This document shows, piece by piece, positions 328-9,160 of a DNA stretch of 44,095 nt. The DNA is from a bacterium (lineage in GTDB: Bacteria; Verrucomicrobiota; Verrucomicrobiia; Opitutales; Opitutaceae). The notes under the pieces are model-generated. The model was not told where the DNA came from. It saw only the letters and a program-made list of their open reading frames with translations, and made no database searches. Made by a program: the position numbers and the translations under genes. The number at the start of each line of letters is the position of its first letter. Positions within the stretch are counted from its first letter, which is position 1. The DNA lies in assembly GCA_021782105.1 (NCBI GenBank), contig JAJXVO010000002.1, forward strand, positions 1 through 44,095. The letters run 5' to 3'.

Positions 328-1317
328 CTAATCGCCGAGCTTGTGGCCGGTGGCGAGGAAGTTTCGAACGTAGTCGGCGACGGCGTCGCGAAGCGGAGTC
401 ATGGGCCGGGAATAGCCCGAGTCGCGCAGCTTCGAGACGTCGGCCTTGGTGAAATACTGGTATTTGGCCCGGAGCTGCTCAGGCATGTCGATGAAATCGA
501 TGTTGGGCTTGCGGCCCATCGCCGAAAAAATCGCGTCTGCCAGCGAGAGCCAGGTGTTCGCTTCGCCCGATCCGAGATTGAAGAGGCCTGCAGCAGGAAG
601 TCCGACCTCGGCGAAATGAAGTGTCATCTCCACGGCGTCCTTGACGTAGAGGAAGTCCCGCATCTGCTCGCCGTCCTTGTAGTCGGGCCTGTGACTGCGG
701 AAAAGGTTCAGGCGGCCTGTCTCCAGAATCTGAGTATGCGCCTTGCTGACGAGCGAACGCATGTCGCCCTTGTGTTCCTCGTTCGGGCCAAAGACGTTGA
801 AATATTTCACGCCGACGATCTTCGACAGCCATCCCTCGCGCTGAGCGTACAGGTCGAAGAGATGTTTAGAGTAACCATACATATTGAGGGGGCGGAGGCG
901 ATGGAGGTCCTCGTCCCTGTCGTCCATGCCCTGCAGACCGTCGCCGTACGTCGCTGCCGAGGACGCGTAAATGAAACGGGCACCGCGTGCGAGGGCCCAG
1001 GCAGCGAGCTCCTTGGTGAAGGCGGTGTTGTTGTCGGCGAGGTAGGAAGCATTGCGCTCTGTCGTCGAAGAACAGGCGCCGAGGTGGAACACGGTCGAGA
1101 TATCACCCCAGGAGTCGGGCTGGCGCGCGAGTCGCTGGCGGAAATCAGAGGCCTCGATGTAGTCGGCGAACCTGAGGGGCGTCAGATTGCGCCACTTCTC
1201 GTCGTTTCCAAGGATGTCCGTCACAAGAATATCGGAGGCGCCCCGTTGATTGAGGCGCCAGATGAGCGCACTGCCGATGAATCCGGCGCCGCCGGTAACG
1301 AGTATCTTGCCCTGCAT
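328..1317 (-). CDS. hldD: ADP-L-glycero-D-manno-heptose 6-epimerase
   Basis: A 329-residue extended SDR epimerase that makes the L,D form of ADP-heptose for LPS inner core. It opens MQGKILVTGGAGFIGS, the NAD(P)-binding GxxGxxG loop, and carries the SSAATYGDG segment and a YGYSKHLFD (YxxxK) catalytic pair; KYFNVFGPNE is also typical of HldD. I chose the ATG at 1317, directly before the Rossmann strand; the reading frame extends back to a TTG at 1350 but those 11 residues look non-coding. It sits 105 nt after the GT9 gene and 16 nt before hldE on the same strand, a heptose synthesis and transfer set. Family assignment is firm. Confidence 0.95.
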   Translation of the reverse strand: MQGKILVTGGAGFIGSALIWRLNQRGASDILVTDILGNDEKWRNLTPLRFADYIEASDFRQRLARQPDSWGDISTVFHLGACSSTTERNASYLADNNTAFTKELAAWALARGARFIYASSAATYGDGLQGMDDRDEDLHRLRPLNMYGYSKHLFDLYAQREGWLSKIVGVKYFNVFGPNEEHKGDMRSLVSKAHTQILETGRLNLFRSHRPDYKDGEQMRDFLYVKDAVEMTLHFAEVGLPAAGLFNLGSGEANTWLSLADAIFSAMGRKPNIDFIDMPEQLRAKYQYFTKADVSKLRDSGYSRPMTPLRDAVADYVRNFLATGHKLGD

Positions 1318-1422
1318 AGGTGAGATCCAGTTTACGATGCCCGCGTGCAATGCGAGCGGAAAGAGCCGCTTGAGTGGGTACCCTTGGGGAAAATCAGTTG
1401 CGGAGCGAGCCCAGCGGTCCGC

Positions 1423-2289
1423 TCATGAGGACTGGGAGTTCATTCGGTCGCGGACGGTTTGCTCCACTTCGTCGACGGGAATGTCCAGGCAGATGAGATC
1501 GTGGGGGCAGCCTGTATTGAGGCCGCAACCGGCGCATTCTGGCGAGCGGGTGAGGTTGGTGTTGAATGGATAACCGGTTTCGACGGGCCGGGAGCGGCCG
1601 CCGTAAATGATCACGGCCGGTGTCTCCACCGCGGCGGCGACATGCATGAGTCCGGATTCCAGCCCGACGAACAGCGCCGCGCCGGCGATGAGCTCTGCGG
1701 CCTGGATGATCGTTGTCTGCCCGCGCAGGTCTCGGGCGCCGGGCAGGAGCGGGTCCATGATGGTGCCGAGTTGGACGAGCGCAAAATCGGGGGCGATCCT
1801 CTGGACCAGGTCGAGCCAGCGGTCGATGGCCCACTCCTTGGTGTCGGAGGCGTAGCGCGCCCCCCGACAGGAGTTTTGGAGAACGACCAGTTTGGGGTTC
1901 TTCTTTTGGGGCTTGTGCAGGATCAGGCGCGGACGCCAGTCCGCTGGCAGGCTTAGGTCCAGGTGATCAGCCATCTGATCGGCGATGTGCCGAAGGGTGC
2001 CGTTGCGGTAAGGGAGATGAATGATCTCGGTGGAGATCCATGCCCTTTGTTTTGCGTAGTGCCAGCGATCGACGTTCGTCTGCAGAGTGGCGGGGTCGGG
2101 GTTGCCGCGCCACAGCTCCGGCAGATTCGTGAGAATGGGAAGCGGTGCATTGAGCTCACGCGCGCGGTGGGCGATCGCCGTGAGCAGCAATTCGTCGCCA
2201 ATGCCGCCGTTGGCGTAAAACAGCCGCGGGAGTTTCGGACGGCTTATCGTCCAGATTCGGTCGAGAATTCCGTTTAGCACGCGGGACAT
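1423..2289 (-). CDS. Glycosyltransferase family 9 (heptosyltransferase-like)
   Basis: A 288-residue protein with a short GT9 layout. It has LFYANGGIGDELLLTAI near the N-terminus (the GxGDxL loop), a central LVVLQNSCRGARYASDTKEW acceptor-side segment, and the donor-binding region VGLESGLMHVAAAVETPAVIIYG near residue 210. The C-terminus has CAGCGLNTGCPHDLICLDI, the CxxC...CP...Cl.I pattern common in GT9 enzymes. GT9 members transfer ADP-heptose to LPS core, which agrees with hldD and hldE just downstream. The exact acceptor cannot be told. The start at 2289 is preceded by CCTGGAACTCAAA, at best a weak ribosome site. A 266-nt gap separates it from the methyltransferase upstream, so it may have its own promoter. 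Confidence 0.85.
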   Translation of the reverse strand: MSRVLNGILDRIWTISRPKLPRLFYANGGIGDELLLTAIAHRARELNAPLPILTNLPELWRGNPDPATLQTNVDRWHYAKQRAWISTEIIHLPYRNGTLRHIADQMADHLDLSLPADWRPRLILHKPQKKNPKLVVLQNSCRGARYASDTKEWAIDRWLDLVQRIAPDFALVQLGTIMDPLLPGARDLRGQTTIIQAAELIAGAALFVGLESGLMHVAAAVETPAVIIYGGRSRPVETGYPFNTNLTRSPECAGCGLNTGCPHDLICLDIPVDEVEQTVRDRMNSQSS

Positions 2290-2413
2290 TTTGAGTTCCA
2301 GGAGTGACGCCAGACCACGATCAGGGGTAAATGCCGGATTGGAAAATGCGATCCTGGAGTGTCTGTCCGATCGCTATCGGTGAACAGGATACGCAGCGTG
2401 CCGACCATGCCCT

Positions 2414-2551
2414 TCACGGTAGACGTATCCAATCGACGCTGGACTCGCTCGCGGATCGCTCCGGAGTGTAGCGTTTTTCGAACGCCGCAAAGCCTGCTTT
2501 ATCAGTTCCGAAATCCCAGGATGGGCTGAATGGATGCGGTGGCTCCAGCAT
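2414..2551 (-). CDS. Possible 45-residue ORF or gene remnant
   Basis: An open frame starts with ATG 4 nt after the methyltransferase stop and ends at 2414. Its product contains FGTDKAGFAAFEKRYTPERS. The TDK...Y pattern faintly recalls the start of some class I methyltransferases found in surface-polysaccharide clusters, so this may be the stump of a decayed second methyltransferase. It could equally be chance reading through intergenic DNA. The remainder down to the GT9 start (2290-2413) shows nothing I can name. Confidence 0.25.
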   Translation of the reverse strand: MLEPPHPFSPSWDFGTDKAGFAAFEKRYTPERSASESSVDWIRLP

Positions 2552-2555
2552 TCTC

Positions 2556-3236
2556 TTAAGTGGGACTGGAGGGGGTGGTGAATGATTCGCCGCCACGGGG
2601 AAGCTGAAGAAGGGATAGTCCCCAATCGCTGTTGATGGTCACGATGGGATAGCCCTGGAGCCTGAGTTCTTCCATCAACACGGGCACGCGCATGTTCTTG
2701 TCGCGGTATTTTTGGTAGTAAGGAGAGTCGCTGTTGCGGTCCCACATCGTGTCGTGAAAGACAATGATCCCGAAGGGAGCCATCCGAGATGAGATGATCT
2801 CCCAGTCCGTCTTCACTCCTTCGTAGGAGTGGTCCCCGTCGATGAAGGCAAAATCGATTTTTGAGGGTAAATCCTCGGTCGCCTGGCTGGAGGTTTTGCG
2901 GACAATCTCTACTCGGGCGGACAGATCGAGTCTGGCGAGATTGGCCTTCAGGTTCTCGAAGGTATTCTCAGGATCAGTGTCGCTCCAGGAATTGGGAATG
3001 TGTGGATCCACGGCCCAGAGGCGTCCCTTGAGATTGAGCTTGAGCGCGAGGCTGATCAGGCAGGTCGAGTAACCGTGGGCGGAGCCGATCTCGACGCACG
3101 CTTCGGGTTTCATACTCCGGACCAAGCCGTGGAGGAACCAGCCCGAGTCGCCGAGTCCCGACCTGAATTTGAGCTGAGAGAGCTGGTAACGCCGCCACGC
3201 AATATGCAGTTCGTGTTTGAGCCGCCGAAGGTTCAT
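2556..3236 (-). CDS. Class I SAM-dependent methyltransferase (Methyltransf_24 type)
   Basis: A 226-residue enzyme starting MNLRRLKHELHIAWRRYQ. The SAM site is seen as ACVEIGSAHGYSTCLISLAL (motif I, E/D-x-G-x-x-x-G) near residue 50, with LWAVDPHIP as the acidic loop of motif II and DFAFIDGDHSYEGVKTDW, the hallmark of the Methyltransf_24 group, where the DGDH acid can bind a metal. Such enzymes in O-antigen or exopolysaccharide clusters methylate sugars, often as capping steps. The start at 3236 was chosen because upstream codons overlap the end of wzt (stop at 3262). With wzt 25 nt upstream it belongs to the export operon. Its substrate is unknown; a chain-terminating role read by Wzt is inference. 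Confidence 0.85.
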   Translation of the reverse strand: MNLRRLKHELHIAWRRYQLSQLKFRSGLGDSGWFLHGLVRSMKPEACVEIGSAHGYSTCLISLALKLNLKGRLWAVDPHIPNSWSDTDPENTFENLKANLARLDLSARVEIVRKTSSQATEDLPSKIDFAFIDGDHSYEGVKTDWEIISSRMAPFGIIVFHDTMWDRNSDSPYYQKYRDKNMRVPVLMEELRLQGYPIVTINSDWGLSLLQLPRGGESFTTPSSPT

Positions 3237-3261
3237 GGGGTTCGTTCTTTTTTGGGGTCTG

Positions 3262-4527
3262 TTAGGGGCAGGGGGAAGGCGATTGGTCGACGAGGGTCGC
3301 GACGGGGACGCCCTCATCCATGATGAAATGTCCGACGTTGTACTCCTTGCGCAGCTCCCACTGGCCGGGGTGGTTGACCCGCGATTCGCTGCCGAAGACC
3401 AGCGCGTCCGAGAGGTAGTGGTCCGAACCGAACCCGTGAATGGTGGTGCTCAGGTCGAAGCCGTAGTTTCCGGTCGCGAGCCTGGGCATGCGGAGCTTGA
3501 GGGAAAGTTCGTAGACGCCGGCTGCGGCCGGAAGGCGCCATTCTGCGAAGTGGCCGGGTGAATACAGGCCGAGGGTGGTGCCGGCAAGGTCAGTCAGAGT
3601 CGCCTCCACCGAGGCGAGCGGATGCCCGTCGGTTTCCACGAGCAGTTTCAGGAAGGCGAAGTCGCCGCCCGGGAAGGTCGGAGTCTCCATGCCGGACACG
3701 TCGACGAGCGCTGCGCGGAGGATGCTCGCGTGCTGGCCCGAGGTGGACGCCCTGTCCGCTCGCAGGTTCTTCGTGTACAGGTCGATCGACTCGGCGGTGG
3801 GGCCGACAAATTCCATCGTGCCCCGCTTGAGGTAGACGCAGCGGGTGGTGAGCGAGCGGATCGCGTTGATGTTGTGGCTGACGAACAGGATAGTCCGGCC
3901 GCTGTCGGCCACCTCGTTCATCTTGCCGAGGCATTTTTGCTGAAAACCCGCGTCGCCCACGGCCAACACCTCGTCGACGATCAGGATGTCGGGCTCCAGA
4001 TGTGCGGCTACGGCGAAGGCGAGGCGCACGTACATTCCGCTGCTGTAGCGCTTGACGGGAGTGTCGAGAAACTGCTCCACCTCGGCGAACGAGACGATGG
4101 CGTCGAACTTGCGCCGGATCTCCTCCCTGCGCATGCCAAGCAGCGCCCCGTTCAGGAAGATGTTGTCGCGGCCGGTGAGTTCGGGATGAAACCCGGTTCC
4201 CACTTCGAGCAGCGAAGCCACGCGGCCCCTGACTCGGATGGTTCCGTGGGTCGGTTCGGTGATTCTCGAGAGGATTTTCAGGAGGGTCGACTTGCCGGCC
4301 CCATTGCGGCCGATCACTCCGAGCACCTCGCCCTTTTCGACCGAAAAACTGACGTCCTGAAGAGCCCAGAACTCTTCGGTCGTCGACTTTGCGTGCGCGC
4401 GGCCGCGCAACGCGGCAATCAGGCTGCGTCCCTTGTGGGCAAGCTGATCGCGCAGGGTATCGTGCTGCAGATGTCCGAGCTCATAGCGCTTGGAGAGTCC
4501 TTCCACTGATATCGCGAGAGAGGCCAT
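3262..4527 (-). CDS. wzt: Polysaccharide ABC exporter ATP-binding protein (Wzt type)
   Basis: 421 residues. The first ~245 are an ABC nucleotide-binding domain: Walker A GRNGAGKST, signature YSSGMYVRLAFAVAA, Walker B ILIVDEVLAVGD, then the switch region ILFVSHN. Residues ~255-421 form an extra C-terminal domain rich in beta strands, as in Wzt proteins that recognise the non-reducing end of the finished O-polysaccharide before export. It starts 9 nt after the wzm stop, so the two halves of the exporter are co-expressed. The family also includes teichoic-acid exporters (TagH), but the Gram-negative LPS setting favours O-antigen or capsule export. Confidence 0.92.
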   Translation of the reverse strand: MASLAISVEGLSKRYELGHLQHDTLRDQLAHKGRSLIAALRGRAHAKSTTEEFWALQDVSFSVEKGEVLGVIGRNGAGKSTLLKILSRITEPTHGTIRVRGRVASLLEVGTGFHPELTGRDNIFLNGALLGMRREEIRRKFDAIVSFAEVEQFLDTPVKRYSSGMYVRLAFAVAAHLEPDILIVDEVLAVGDAGFQQKCLGKMNEVADSGRTILFVSHNINAIRSLTTRCVYLKRGTMEFVGPTAESIDLYTKNLRADRASTSGQHASILRAALVDVSGMETPTFPGGDFAFLKLLVETDGHPLASVEATLTDLAGTTLGLYSPGHFAEWRLPAAAGVYELSLKLRMPRLATGNYGFDLSTTIHGFGSDHYLSDALVFGSESRVNHPGQWELRKEYNVGHFIMDEGVPVATLVDQSPSPCP

Positions 4528-4536
4528 GGCAGCGTG

Positions 4537-5361
4537 CTAGATGATGTCGGCGAAGCGGCGCTCCGTGTGTCGGAAGTACCACAGTCCGGTTGCGACGAGG
4601 ACGATCCCGACAATGGATGATATCGCGAGCCCGATGGCACTGATCTCGGTGTTTCCTCCAAGGATACACCAGCGGAAGCCCTGGATCATGCCGGTTAGCG
4701 GGTTGAGCGACAGGATCGCGCGCCAGTGAGGAAGGTTGTCGGTTCTGTAGCCGACGGGTGTCACGAAGATTCCGATCTGGAGGATGAACGGGGAGATGAA
4801 GCGGAAGTCGCGGTATTTCACGGTCAGCGCGGTGATCCACAGCCCGGCGCCCAGTGCGATCAACAGGGCGCCAACGATGAAGACCGGCAGCACTGCAAGC
4901 CGCCACGTCGGGAATATTCCATAAAATGCCGCGCAGGGAATCGTCAGCACGAGCGGGACAGACATGTCCACCAAGGCGACGGCCAGCGCCGACAAAGGGA
5001 CTATGAGGCGCGGAAAATAGACCTTGGAGATGAGGTTCGAATTGCTCACGAGACTTCCGCCCGCCCCGCTGAAGGCGGACGAGAATAGCTGCCAGGGGAG
5101 AATGCCGGCCAGGACGAGAAGCGGGTAGGGCACCGATCCGTTGGGCATCTTGGCCAGGGTTCCGAAAACGAACGTCAGAAGGAGCGTTTGGACCAGCGGC
5201 TGGATGAGTGCCCAGGATGCGCCGAGGACGGCCTGTTTGTAGCGTACCTTGACGTCGCGCCAGGCCAGAAAGCCCAGCAGCTCGCGGTAGCGCCAAAGGT
5301 CGCGCCAGTAATGCGCTTCGCTGCGGCCCGCTGAGATGACGACTTCGGGTGCTTCGTTCAT
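4537..5361 (-). CDS. wzm: Polysaccharide ABC exporter permease (Wzm type)
   Basis: A 274-residue ABC-2 membrane protein starting MNEAPEVVISAGRSEAHYWR. The cytoplasmic N-terminus contains LLGFLAWRDVKVRYKQAVLG, the conserved amphipathic stretch of Wzm/TagG/RfbD permeases, followed by about six hydrophobic segments (for example TLLLTFVFGTLA and LVLTIPCAAFYGIFP). The ATG at 5361 overlaps the stop of the upstream glycosyltransferase by 4 nt (ATGA), suggesting [13 protein letters not shown] coupling; longer in-frame starts would run deep into that gene. With wzt it forms the inner-membrane transporter that moves undecaprenyl-linked polysaccharide to the periplasm. Confidence 0.92.
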   Translation of the reverse strand: MNEAPEVVISAGRSEAHYWRDLWRYRELLGFLAWRDVKVRYKQAVLGASWALIQPLVQTLLLTFVFGTLAKMPNGSVPYPLLVLAGILPWQLFSSAFSGAGGSLVSNSNLISKVYFPRLIVPLSALAVALVDMSVPLVLTIPCAAFYGIFPTWRLAVLPVFIVGALLIALGAGLWITALTVKYRDFRFISPFILQIGIFVTPVGYRTDNLPHWRAILSLNPLTGMIQGFRWCILGGNTEISAIGLAISSIVGIVLVATGLWYFRHTERRFADII

Positions 5362-6455
5362 GAGGATCGGGTCGGCGCGGATGACGGTGGCAGTGCGGCG
5401 CGCAGGCGCTCGCGAAATCGAGGGTAGGAAAAATCCCGCACCCGCGCGAGGATCGCATTCGGGTCCCAAGTGTGCCGGAGCCCCTCAACGCAACTCGCAG
5501 CGATGCTGGGAATATCGCCGTAGTCGCAGAGAAGTCCGGATTCTGGCGAGATCACCTCGGGAATGCCTCCGGCGCGGGCGCCGAGACAGGGCCTGCCCTG
5601 AGCCATGGCCTCAAGAAAGACGAGGCCGAAGCCCTCTTTTTTGGAGGGAAGCGCGAAAAGCGTACACTGTTTCAATTGCTGCTGCAATTCTGCGTCACTC
5701 ACGAAACCCAGCATCTGCACACCCTGCTGCAGCCCCAGGTCGTTGGCCAGCTGTCTCAACCGCAGCGCATCGTCCCCGTGGCCGATGATACGCAGGGTCG
5801 CGTCGGGAAATGCACGGCGCACGAGCGGCATTGCCTCGATGAGCGTGTCGATTCCCTTGTAGATATCGGCCTTCGTGAGGCGTGCGACGGTGGTGATCAC
5901 CGGGGACGCGACAGGAGGAGCGACGGAGTCCGCGATCGGAAAATACGCGTCGAGTCCGTTGGGAACGACGACCGCTCGGGCGTCAGGGATCTGAGAAAAC
6001 TCACGCATCTTCTGTCGCGTGTAGTCGCTGATGCAGAGCACGCGGCGTGCGAATCGTAGGGCGGCCTTTTCGGCGGGGGTGAAGGAGCGCCAGACCTCGA
6101 TGCCGTGGGCCACGACGTCGTAGGTGAGCTTCGGGTTGCGGAGCTTCAAGGCGAGGGCCACAGGAAGCTGAGCGACGTGGCCGCAGACCACGTGGTCGCA
6201 ACCCCGTCCATGTTTGAAGGAGGCTCGGATGAACCGCAGCTTGCTTCCGCTGCACACTTCCCAGGAATCGAGTGAGGAATTTGAATATCGCCGGAGGTCT
6301 GTAGAATCGACATCGGTGTCGTTCAAGGCAATCAGGCGCACCTGTCCGGCCTGTTCTTCAGCGATGTCGCAGATCGCCTTGAGGTAGAGCCGGAGGATCC
6401 GGGGGATGCCGCCATTTGTCGTGAAAATCTCGGGGGCAAGAACGAGAGTTCTCAT
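5358..6455 (-). CDS. Glycosyltransferase family 4
   Basis: A 365-residue GT-B enzyme beginning MRTLVLAPEIFTTNGGIPRIL; the NGGIPR loop is the usual acceptor-side glycine loop. The C-terminal half has VITTVARLTKADIYKGID and LRIIGHGDD for donor binding, and KEGFGLVFLEAMAQGRPCLG, the E-x7-E signature of GT4 retaining transferases. It should add a nucleotide-activated sugar to the lipid-linked glycan built by this operon; which sugar cannot be read. Its ATG overlaps the asnB-like stop by 4 nt and its stop overlaps the wzm start by 4 nt, so it is tightly coupled on both sides. An in-frame extension upstream to 6899 is only a shadow of the asnB-like gene. Confidence 0.9.
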   Translation of the reverse strand: MRTLVLAPEIFTTNGGIPRILRLYLKAICDIAEEQAGQVRLIALNDTDVDSTDLRRYSNSSLDSWEVCSGSKLRFIRASFKHGRGCDHVVCGHVAQLPVALALKLRNPKLTYDVVAHGIEVWRSFTPAEKAALRFARRVLCISDYTRQKMREFSQIPDARAVVVPNGLDAYFPIADSVAPPVASPVITTVARLTKADIYKGIDTLIEAMPLVRRAFPDATLRIIGHGDDALRLRQLANDLGLQQGVQMLGFVSDAELQQQLKQCTLFALPSKKEGFGLVFLEAMAQGRPCLGARAGGIPEVISPESGLLCDYGDIPSIAASCVEGLRHTWDPNAILARVRDFSYPRFRERLRAALPPSSAPTRSS

Positions 6456-8341
6456 GGGGAGCTCCGTCGATTGACGAATTGAATTAGGATAGCCAAGCTC
6501 CAGATGCGCGACCATTCGCGTGGATCTTCGGAATCCAGGAAATTGCGCCAGCGCGCTTGCGTGGCGGCCGCGTCGAACAAACCGCACCTGCTGAGGCTGA
6601 GGTCTGAGAAGCTGTCCTCGAGGAACGGGCGAAGCTCGTGCTTCATCCACACCGAGAACGGGAGAATGAAGCCCGATTTGCGCCGCTTGAGCAGCGCCGG
6701 GGGAATCAGGTCTGCGACGGCCTCGGCAAGTGGCAGCTTGGGCCTGCGTGCGTTGTACTTGAATTCGGTCGGCTGCCGCCACAGCCATTGGATGAAATTC
6801 CGATCGATGAACGGCACGCGCAGCTCGATCGAATGGCGCATGCTCATGATGTCGCTGTCGTGCAGAAGCACATCGGCCATGTAAGTGCGCAGTTCCCACG
6901 CACTGATCGCATGCGCGGCCGGCTGACCTGCGAGTTCGCGCGACAAAAGCGAGAGTTGGGGATGATACGGCGTGTAGTGCCCCTTGAGTTGCGCCCGCAA
7001 CTCCTCCGAAATCAATGCCGTCTGCACCGGCGTCGAAAACACGCGCCGCTGCATCGCGCCCAGTTCATGGAGGTTCCTGGCATGCTCCAGGAAGTCCGCG
7101 AGCTTGCGCCTCTGGACGTCGCCCGTGCGTAGCCGGCGCAGGATCGTCTTACGCAAGAAATCCGGAAGACTCCACCACATCGGCAACCAGCGGCTCAGCC
7201 GGGGAAGGACCCGGAACGAGGGGTAACTGCCGAACAACTCGTCGCCCCCAAGGCCGGAGAGAGCAACGGTCACGCCGCCCTCCTTCGCCGCCAAACTCGC
7301 GTAGTAGGTGTTGATCCCGTCTCCGGAGGGATGATCGAGAGAGGCAAGGATCTTGTCCATGTCCTCCGCCACGCGCCTTCCAGTCAACAGGAAGGGGTGA
7401 TGCTCGGCTCCGATGTACCGGGCTGTCTCTGCGGCTTCGGTGGCCTCGGAAAAATTGCTCTCTTCGAATTCGATCGAGAAGGTCTTGAGTTTGGAGCCGC
7501 TGATCCGGGTCATCAGGCTCGTGATGACCGCGGAGTCGAGACCGCCGGAGAGGAAGGCACCGACAGGAACGTCCGCGACCACATGAGCCCGGATCGTCTC
7601 CTCGAGGCGGTTGCGCAGCTCCTCGCGAAATTGGTCCCGTGACGTGCAGACGGGGTCATCGAACGTACGATTGAACGTCCACGACGAGGCGATGGTCAGC
7701 ACCTCATCCCTGAAAATGGCGTACTCCCCTGGGCGCAGACTTTTGAGGCCCTGGTAGATGGTCTTGGGCGCTGGAACGGCGAACCATGCGAGGTAGTCGA
7801 GCGCCGCCGCCTGATCGATTTGGAAGTCGACCATTCCCGACGCCAAGATCGCATTTAGCTCGGACGCGAATACCAGACGGCCACCCTCGCGAACATAATA
7901 CAGGGGCTTGATGCCGAAAGGATCCCGAGCGACGAACAGCTCCCGGTCCCGGGCGTCCCAGACCGCAAAGGCATACATCCCTCGAAGGCGGTCCAGTGCG
8001 CAGACTCCCCATCGGACGTAAGCAGCCAGCAGCACCTCGGTATCGCATTGGGTTCGAAACGCGAAACCCAGCGCCTCCAACTCGATCCGCAGGACCGTGA
8101 AGTTGTAGATCGCCCCATTGAAGACGATGGAATATCTCCCGTCCGCGCTGTGCATGGGCTGGTGCCCGTTCGCGGGGTCGAAGATCGCCAAACGCCGCAT
8201 CCCCATAGTGAGCGGCCCGCTGCTCATCGAACCCTCATCGGTCGGTCCGCGATGTAACATGGCCTGGCACATCCGGCCCACCGCGCGCTCACGCCCGTCG
8301 ACAGAGACGGTCGAATCAATCAATCCGGCTATGCCGCACAT
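6452..8341 (-). CDS. asnB: Asparagine synthase-like amidotransferase in polysaccharide operon
   Basis: 629 residues, the usual length of class II glutamine-hydrolysing asparagine synthases. Residue Cys2 (MCGIAGLIDS) is the Ntn-type nucleophile of the glutaminase half, with MLHRGPTDEGS and MRRLAIFD typical of that domain. The synthetase half shows FLSGGLDSAVITSL, the PP-loop that binds ATP, near residue 265, and ALSGLGGDELFGSYP. Both active sites look intact. As the first gene of a surface-glycan operon it may amidate a sugar carboxylate rather than aspartate, which is known for AsnB paralogues in O-antigen clusters; real asparagine synthesis is also possible. It is the promoter-proximal gene, downstream of the palindrome at 8453. 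Confidence 0.88.
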   Translation of the reverse strand: MCGIAGLIDSTVSVDGRERAVGRMCQAMLHRGPTDEGSMSSGPLTMGMRRLAIFDPANGHQPMHSADGRYSIVFNGAIYNFTVLRIELEALGFAFRTQCDTEVLLAAYVRWGVCALDRLRGMYAFAVWDARDRELFVARDPFGIKPLYYVREGGRLVFASELNAILASGMVDFQIDQAAALDYLAWFAVPAPKTIYQGLKSLRPGEYAIFRDEVLTIASSWTFNRTFDDPVCTSRDQFREELRNRLEETIRAHVVADVPVGAFLSGGLDSAVITSLMTRISGSKLKTFSIEFEESNFSEATEAAETARYIGAEHHPFLLTGRRVAEDMDKILASLDHPSGDGINTYYASLAAKEGGVTVALSGLGGDELFGSYPSFRVLPRLSRWLPMWWSLPDFLRKTILRRLRTGDVQRRKLADFLEHARNLHELGAMQRRVFSTPVQTALISEELRAQLKGHYTPYHPQLSLLSRELAGQPAAHAISAWELRTYMADVLLHDSDIMSMRHSIELRVPFIDRNFIQWLWRQPTEFKYNARRPKLPLAEAVADLIPPALLKRRKSGFILPFSVWMKHELRPFLEDSFSDLSLSRCGLFDAAATQARWRNFLDSEDPREWSRIWSLAILIQFVNRRSSP

Positions 8342-8452
8342 CGAGAGGAGTGGATAAGCCCATGCACGGCTTTGCCCCGTCGCGTCCGACTGAGCGGAGA
8401 CAACCTAGGGGCGTCGGTAGGGTTGGTTGGGGGATCAAACGGGAAGCCGATC

Positions 8453-8468
8453 TAGGGTAATTACCCTA
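8453..8468. promoter_or_regulatory. Perfect 16-bp palindrome, candidate operator of the polysaccharide operon
   Basis: The sequence TAGGGTAATTACCCTA is its own reverse complement. It lies about 112 nt before the asnB-like start, next to an alternating TATATATA run. Read on the minus strand, TATATA comes just before the palindrome, so a factor bound here would cover the probable transcription start. Size and symmetry fit a dimeric HTH regulator, for example of the LuxR/NarL class; which factor is unknown. I do not see a good -35 hexamer. Confidence 0.55.
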
Positions 8469-8495
8469 TATATACACGCAAAAAGGCAAGCCTTC

Positions 8496-8523
8496 GACTT
8501 TTAGGCACTTCGGCCAAAAAGTC
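8496..8523. other. 28-nt imperfect stem-loop upstream of the polysaccharide operon
   Basis: Arms GACTTTT and AAAAGTC enclose inner arms GGC and GCC with one A/A mismatch between them and a six-base loop ACTTCG. It lies ~100 nt past the stop of the DJ-1-like gene and ~30 nt upstream (minus strand) of the palindrome. It could end transcripts from the DJ-1-like gene or be a binding site; no clear U-tract follows on the minus strand. Confidence 0.45.
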
Positions 8524-8620
8524 TCCGAGCTGAAGCAACAACTGCCTAGTCAAGTGATAACTTATTGCGAGGCAGAAAAATAGGGTCATCGCGGGTCGGG
8601 GAGGGTGGCAGCGTGGCGGG

Positions 8621-9160
8621 TCAGAACGCGATCGACGATGCGATTTCGTTGGATTTTTCGGGTGAGAAGAGGCGTTTGACGATTTCGAGTCCGAAGTCGA
8701 TCGATGTGGCGGCGCCTCGGGAGGTGATCAGGTGCCCGTCAGTGACGACTCGCTCGTTGCCGAGAATGGCGGTGAGTTCTTGTGCGACGGAAGGGTGGGC
8801 GGTGTAACGTTTCCCCCGAAGGAGGCCGGCGTCGTGGAGCACGGTGGGAGCTGCGCAGATGGCGGCGATCCAGGATTTCGCGGCGGCGTGGCGGAGTAGG
8901 AGCTCGCGGATTCGAGGGTCGGCACGGAGATGGCGAACGCCGGGACCGCCGGGCAGGAAGATGCAATCGAAGGACGCGGTCAGGCAGTTTTCGAGAGGCG
9001 TGTCCGCGCGAACGATGATGCCGCTGCGACTTTTGACGAGGAGGTCGGGGCCGAGTGAAGCGAGGATGACATCGGCCCCGGCGCGTCGGAGGAGGTCGAC
9101 GGGGGCGATGGCCTCGGTTTCCTCAAAGCCTGTGGCGAGAATTGCGAGTACGGACGGCAT
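8621..9160 (-). CDS. DJ-1/PfpI family protein
   Basis: 179 residues, the normal size for a DJ-1 domain. It begins MPSVLAILATGFEETEA; the FEETE acid corresponds to the glutamate that lowers the pKa of the active cysteine. The nucleophile elbow is IAAICAAPTVLHDAG with Cys102, followed by RYTAHPS (His122). Close relatives include YajL/ThiJ-type proteins, with reported covalent-chaperone, glyoxalase III or deglycase activities; which applies here cannot be decided. The ATG at 9160 sits at the family's usual start; the frame stays open upstream, but that would run into the divergent SDR gene. Start codons of the two divergent genes are only 17 nt apart. Confidence 0.88.
   Translation of the reverse strand: MPSVLAILATGFEETEAIAPVDLLRRAGADVILASLGPDLLVKSRSGIIVRADTPLENCLTASFDCIFLPGGPGVRHLRADPRIRELLLRHAAAKSWIAAICAAPTVLHDAGLLRGKRYTAHPSVAQELTAILGNERVVTDGHLITSRGAATSIDFGLEIVKRLFSPEKSNEIASSIAF

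Follow-up and report, generated by a model that had tools for sequence, protein, structure and literature searches.

The asnB-like gene at the head of a surface-glycan operon in the window, the whole 44,095-nt stretch of DNA that was analyzed, is preceded by a palindrome (P1), a stem-loop (P2) and a short core ending in GGGCRAAGC. On balance, we favor the reading that P1, P2 and the core make up a family-specific leader of surface-glycan operons, which would act by antitermination like ops/JUMPstart and RfaH but with a different recruitment sequence. The three elements are conserved and hold their positions among relatives, the leader recurs before other glycan genes, and it co-occurs with type A, a second NusG-type protein found in many genomes of the family. 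The stronger signal is not the palindrome but the gene-proximal stem-loop with the near-invariant GGGCRAAGC.

Seven minus-strand ORFs between positions 328 and 8341 were scanned for domains with Pfam and NCBIfam, and the results are given in Table 1. The initial annotation had placed the palindrome before a surface-glycan operon, and the gene content of these ORFs bore this out. The surface-glycan reading is a fair one because of the amidotransferase, the GT4 glycosyltransferase, the exporter ATPase, the methyltransferase, the GT9 glycosyltransferase and the heptose epimerase. Since the GT4 ORF as listed overlaps asnB, its start is probably near 6450.

Table 1. Positions of the leader elements, the glycan genes and the integron-associated leader copies. 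Positions are those of the window unless a locus is named.
Feature	Position	Strand	Remarks
P1, perfect palindrome TAGGGTAATTACCCTA	8453..8468	.	18-bp form 8452-8469; family consensus CTRGGG-N6-CCCYAG
TATATATA, overlapping the end of P1	8467..8474	.	possible -10 region
P2 stem-loop GTTGTCTCCG...CGGACGCGAC, directly before the core	8379..8404	-	covariation in 78 distinct sequences of other loci; weak in asnB leaders
Core GGACGCGACGGGGCAAAGC (family GGAAGYGACGGGGCRAAGC)	8369..8387	-	≤4 substitutions in 56/70 leaders
Covariance model R1 match (P2, core and flanks)	8361..8412	-	34.0 bits, E 4.3e-9; sequence among the 56 used for R1
asnB-like amidotransferase, first gene after the leader	6452..8341	-	629 aa; PF00733, PF13537; TIGR01536 above cut-off, TIGR03108 below
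GT4-type glycosyltransferase ORF, overlapping asnB as listed	5358..6899	-	PF00534, PF13692
335-aa ORF of the glycan operon, kind not recognized	4481..5488	-	no Pfam or NCBIfam match
ABC transporter ATPase resembling polysaccharide exporters	3262..4527	-	Wzt/TagH type, below NCBIfam cut-offs
Methyltransferase	2556..3317	-	PF13578
GT9 (heptosyltransferase-type) glycosyltransferase	1423..2289	-	PF01075
ADP-glyceromanno-heptose 6-epimerase	328..1350	-	TIGR02197 above cut-off
Leader copies in genome G043	L185:297-347, 4730-4780; L186:769-819; L187:3491-3541, 5532-5582, 6931-6981; L183:2980-3030
Leader-like site, source genome contig C304 (L182)	2385-2439	-	similar in L188, L194, L247
Integron integrase, same contig	513-2069	+

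Relatives of the asnB-like protein were found in 92 of 150 family genomes, and the upstream DNA of 70 asnB-like loci (30 from the search, including the window, and 40 more) was compared. In 56 of these 70 leaders a core was present that differed from GGAAGYGACGGGGCGAAGC by no more than 4 substitutions; it was absent in 14, among them that of the same-genus genome G003. Between the end of the core and the ATG lay 3-40 nt in 53 leaders and 55-110 nt in the remaining 3. In the alignment of the 56 leaders (A1), the G, C, A, A and G of GCRAAG were invariant. The window (8369-8375) and two other leaders have GCAAAGC at this place, the counterpart of the GCGAAGC found in all the rest.

P2 lies directly upstream of the core; its stem has about 8-10 pairs and its loop varies in length. 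Among asnB leaders the sequence of P2 is largely conserved, with weak covariation (83.0% of cells paired vs 81.3% in shuffles). RNAalifold on the 56 leaders gave just 3 weak pairs, all within the core, and the leader RNA of the window folded no better than shuffles (z -0.78). A covariance model of 51 positions, R1, was built from the 56 leaders. In 80 of its matches from other loci (78 distinct sequences), which had not been used in building the model but were aligned by fitting to it, 30 cells of P2 had changed on both sides vs 10.5 in shuffles (0/500). All seven GCGAAGC bases were invariant in the 80 matches, which had been picked by a model favoring these bases. Counts of G-U vs A-C mismatches in P2 (60 vs 36 and 60 vs 41) did not discriminate. 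As DNA, GCGAAGC is reported to form an extra-stable mini-hairpin melting at 78 C (PMC4686876). The folding program found the same mini-hairpin unexceptional (z -0.57 and -0.74) and assigned equal energy to a version with an altered loop. An ops-like pause register, Y(-1)G(+1), appeared in 6 of 47 and 17 of 70 rows, which was not above adjacent offsets; 9/56 and 10/80 rows had been left out because the search string was unmatched. Rfam gave no match at gathering thresholds for the window and 17 loci, nor for 16 leader loci at E≤1, and nothing on such a leader was found in the literature, judged from search listings.

The leader is not limited to asnB. At E≤0.01, R1 matched 110 of the 150 family genomes, with up to 18 sites per genome among the matches listed. 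Of 80 loci taken around further R1 matches, 4 are of asnB type and 76 are non-asnB, the latter counted as one site each. At 28 of the 76, Pfam assigned a glycan type to the longest of the ORFs that begin within 300 nt. These first genes include ABC-2 permeases (7), flippase-type proteins (4), nucleotide-sugar dehydratases, dehydrogenases, epimerases, glycosyl and sugar transferases and EpsI-like DUF3485 proteins, together with the less specific GFO/IDH/MocA (3) and cytidylyltransferase-like (1) proteins. The other 48 sites had no glycan gene assigned as first gene, and some of them lie at integrons. A scan of the first ORF at L237 gave no match, and ten further non-asnB sites had no glycan gene. 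Four more sites had a related gene further downstream, namely dTDP-glucose-dehydratase-like, FkbM methyltransferase, GlmS-like and AsnB-like. Since P2 and the core recur before other polysaccharide operons, a switch at elongation is more likely than one at initiation only.

The leader appears to be a property of the family. Of 387 genomes sampled across the phylum, 48 had an R1 match at E≤0.001. The family accounted for 27 of these and other lineages for 21, with no match outside the family reaching 1e-6 (best 6.0e-6). A related-locus search with asnB yielded just 4 distant homologues. At L223:1765-2460 (-) in genome G030, the leader and a 5' asnB fragment are joined to other coding sequence, the ORF being a glutaminase domain fused to a bacterial sugar transferase. 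By eye, L199, L200 and L201 also have the leader and a 5' asnB fragment joined to other sequence. Such joins may be junctions of glycan-operon exchange or assembly faults.

The main support for pairing the leader with type A is their co-occurrence. Using a query from L116, type A was found at E<1e-30 in 106 of the 150 family genomes, and the leader at E≤1e-5 was present in 84 of these 106 vs 2 of the 44 genomes without type A. By genus, the leader was found in 34 of 36 with type A vs 0 of 13 without, and among 67 genomes with a close asnB relative, in 55 of 58 with type A vs 2 of 9 without. At the 70 asnB loci, 54 of the 56 genomes with the core encoded type A, as did 7 of the 14 lacking it. 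These counts treat related genomes as independent, and R1 may favor type A genomes because 54 of the 56 training leaders come from them. The two exceptions, with a core and no detectable type A, were the source genome (two leaders) and G070, both about 91-92% complete and in hundreds of pieces. The one NGN protein found in the source genome was nusG itself, located by eye between secE and rplK. Conversely, 22 of the 106 type A genomes had no leader at E≤1e-5; the same-genus genome G002, which is 68% complete, has type A and lacks an R1 match.

Type A belongs to the NusG family. The NGN domain PF02357 scored above cut-off at the type A loci of G116, G133, G054, G121 and others. The best NCBIfam match was the UpxY model NF033644 (70.7 and 66.5 bits, cut-off 100), followed by the RfaH model TIGR01955 (48.5 bits for L116 and 36.9 for L145, cut-off 144.5), the LoaP model NF033641 (34.9 and 36.2 bits, cut-off 125) and the NusG model (20.4 bits, cut-off 135.7). 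In a structure predicted from 27 sequences (mean pLDDT 80.9, pTM 0.54; one state), the N-domain is of NusG type and the C-domain is beta, made of strands only. With this model, Foldseek placed NusG and RfaH at the top, at low full-length TM-scores of 0.33-0.49 in most top-listed matches. The RfaH residues reported to contact ops are K10, H20, R23 and R73 (PMC5995543). The counterpart of K10 was K or R in 27 of 27 type A sequences, that of H20 was Leu in all 27, that of R23 was not basic, and R73 could not be placed. In the 387-genome sample, close relatives of type A are confined to the family, the best protein outside it being 38% identical. The type A gene was not seen beside asnB leaders; in G054, G135, G072 and G017, for example, the two share a contig but are separated by 35 to 60 kb. 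L118, L120 and L121 hold another NusG paralogue, which is nearer to RfaH (TIGR01955 88.9 bits for L118, below cut-off) and just 23-25% identical to type A.

From these comparisons we infer recruitment, pausing and antitermination, as well as any role of P1. P2 and the core ending in GGGCRAAGC would be the working part of the leader, and P1 an upstream element. As the core is transcribed, the P2 RNA hairpin, the exposed non-template GCGAAGC DNA or both would recruit type A. Type A would then stay on RNA polymerase in place of NusG, and the polymerase would read the long operon to its end, as it does with RfaH after ops. P1 would most likely serve as a DNA site near the promoter, perhaps bound by a dimeric regulator of the asnB-type operons.

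P1 was the starting point of the study. The initial annotation had reported a perfect 16-bp palindrome adjoining TATATATA, and both were confirmed and found to overlap. The near edge of P1 is 112 bp upstream of position 8341, the first base of the minus-strand asnB-like gene. The palindrome had also been taken, by eye, to be present once, and mismatch searches agreed: no second copy of TAGGGTAATTACCCTA was found at ≤3 mismatches in the window or at ≤2 mismatches in the 4.04-Mb assembly (431 contigs, about 91-92% complete). At ≤1 mismatch it was detected in 8 of 150 family genomes, the source genome counted, vs 1 of 150 for the reversed control. The initial annotation had also put P1 at the probable transcription start; a sigma-70 promoter scan of positions 8200-8750 gave no match, and in the relatives' leaders no fixed distance between P1 and a -10-like hexamer was prominent in a survey made without a control comparison. 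No paper containing the palindrome sequence was found. A second inverted repeat (8496-8523, 11-nt arms, 91%, 6-nt loop) lies between P1 and a DJ-1/PfpI gene and is perhaps the end of that gene's transcript. P1 as a statistical oddity was dropped, since the bare count of perfect palindromes of at least 16 bp in the window was near shuffle expectation (3 vs 1.54, sd 1.22, in 100 dinucleotide shuffles). Within the 279-bp intergenic stretch holding P1, which was picked post hoc, 0.39% of 20,000 shuffles contained such a palindrome.

P1 matters because it is conserved among the relatives' leaders. The pattern CTRGGG-N6-CCCYAG was found at 9 or more of its 12 positions in 37 of the 56 core-bearing orthologous leaders vs 6.0% of shuffles, and perfectly in 12 of 56 vs 0 of 5,600 shuffles, a test that is partly circular because the consensus was drawn from the same leaders. 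In a different test, the best hairpin in the P1 zone had p <0.05 against shuffles in 23 of 56 leaders. Conservation in orthologous leaders, whose absence the initial annotation would have taken as a refutation, was thus observed; the enrichment it had proposed testing for in the source genome and related Opitutaceae was not. Over 150 family genomes, CTRGGGN6CCCYAG gave 129 matches vs 165 for the reversed control; in the source genome it gave 3 vs 2, and TAGGGN6CCCTA gave 3 vs 4. P1 as one site of a regulon was dropped on these counts.

The leading alternative is that P1 is the operator through which a dimeric transcription factor controls initiation at the asnB operon, with P2 and the core independent of it. 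This is quite possible, if not favored, and it can coexist with the antitermination account. With perfect 6+6 arms, even spacers of 4, 6 and 8 were found in 10, 13 and 7 leaders against a shuffle expectation of about 0.6 for each, and odd spacers in 3, 3 and 1 leaders. Among the mismatches of P1 in 37 leaders, A-C (19) was no rarer than G-U (10), and pairing outward of the arms was just slightly over expectation, which together lean toward a DNA site. P1-like sites matching at least 10 of 12 positions also occur in 7 of the 76 non-asnB leader sites, where 1.3 are expected. On the other hand, the pattern is not enriched genome-wide, no regulator was found, and 19 of the 56 leaders have a weak P1 or none. 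The both-sided changes seen at all 7 P1 pairs in the leader alignment would fit an RNA hairpin as well.

Those same changes are one argument for the next alternative, in which P1 is a hairpin at the 5' end of the transcript, serving stability or attenuation, and no protein site. In L048, L063 and L065 (genus g41), P1 is stretched into a stem of 13-14 bp with TTTTT after it, resembling an intrinsic terminator or attenuator, and L017 and L008 likewise have a long stem and then a T run. We consider this reading unlikely, with A-C mismatches as common as G-U, little pairing past the arms in most leaders and no T run after P1 in the window. On this modest evidence P1 resembles a DNA palindrome somewhat more than it does an RNA stem, which would fit a dimeric operator, and P1 is probably a promoter-proximal DNA site. 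Of the dimeric-regulator switch first proposed for it, the recurrence and the place before a glycan operon are supported; a regulon is not, and the switch is likelier at elongation than at initiation only.

A further alternative concerns P2 and the core, which might be a cis-acting RNA (a riboswitch, a protein-binding site or an mRNA-stabilizing element) read by a factor outside the NusG family, with an indirect tie to type A. Such an RNA would account for a covarying stem with a variable loop and for the nearness of P2 and the core to the start codon in asnB leaders. We regard it as slightly less probable still than the 5' hairpin, since the best-conserved part is a short unpaired core with no large aptamer or Rfam match, the targets are many different glycan first genes, and the co-occurrence with type A is strong. 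Finally, that P1 is a chance feature is highly improbable: about 1.5 palindromes of at least its length are expected per window, but the orthologous leaders conserve the motif at a corresponding place, which largely refutes this reading.

Leader copies were also seen at integrons. Genome G043 has seven in ORF-less units of about 200 bp with attC-like flanks (by eye), resembling integron cassettes and lying before different small ORFs; a small ORF follows within 200 nt at 6 of the 7. Four genomes, the source genome among them, carry a leader-like site downstream of an integron integrase gene scoring above cut-off for TIGR02249. The site is on the strand opposite to the gene and 75-316 bp beyond its 3' end. 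Long mobile transcription units would be plausible targets of antitermination, but the integrase-side sites point back toward the integrase. A more far-reaching version of the antitermination account, which we put forward tentatively, is a mechanism essentially confined to the family in which a non-template GCGAAGC mini-hairpin would recruit the NusG paralogue at glycan operons and integrons alike. In at least one genome the cassette-like units would then allow the leader to be dealt out before other gene cassettes.

The antitermination account pairs a NusG paralogue with a candidate signal, by co-occurrence over 49 genera and with a near-invariant 7-mer. If true, it would suggest a way in which long glycan operons, and perhaps integron arrays, are expressed in the family. 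If the non-template mini-hairpin is the ligand, hairpin read-out among NusG relatives would extend beyond ops and be a principle of wider reach. Functional data are reported for few NusG paralogues (PMC7819879), and in one survey about 95% of RfaH proteins came from Proteobacteria (PMC7593976); "Verrucomicrob" is absent from the main texts of both papers.

The closest likeness is to ops/JUMPstart and RfaH. In both systems a short leader element with a stem-loop and a conserved sequence lies close before polysaccharide operons, a genome has several such sites, the NusG paralogue is encoded elsewhere, and the non-template strand allows a GC-closed mini-hairpin to be drawn. They differ in that the family leader has GGGCGAAGC instead of the ops sequence, is without an Rfam match at E≤1, showed no ops-like pause register and has a second, upstream palindrome, P1. 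In free, autoinhibited RfaH the C-terminal domain is an alpha-helical hairpin, whereas that of type A, which scores below the RfaH cut-offs, is modeled as beta in the one predicted state. RfaH is reported to be recruited at ops by a small non-template DNA hairpin (PMC5995543), and JUMPstart (Rfam RF01707) is given for gamma-Proteobacteria (PMC2864571). LoaP and the EAR-type leader RNAs, which are described as promoting readthrough in long operons (PMC7819879, PMC2864571), share with the present system a NusG paralogue or a leader RNA. They differ from it in that type A is far from the LoaP cut-off (34.9 bits vs 125) and the family leader is without an Rfam match. UpxY of the Bacteroides capsule operons, which is reported to act within 5' leaders (PMC7819879) and to reside in its own operon (PMC7593976), is the best NCBIfam match of type A and likewise has surface polysaccharide targets. 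Unlike UpxY, type A falls below the 100-bit cut-off and is encoded away from the asnB leaders.
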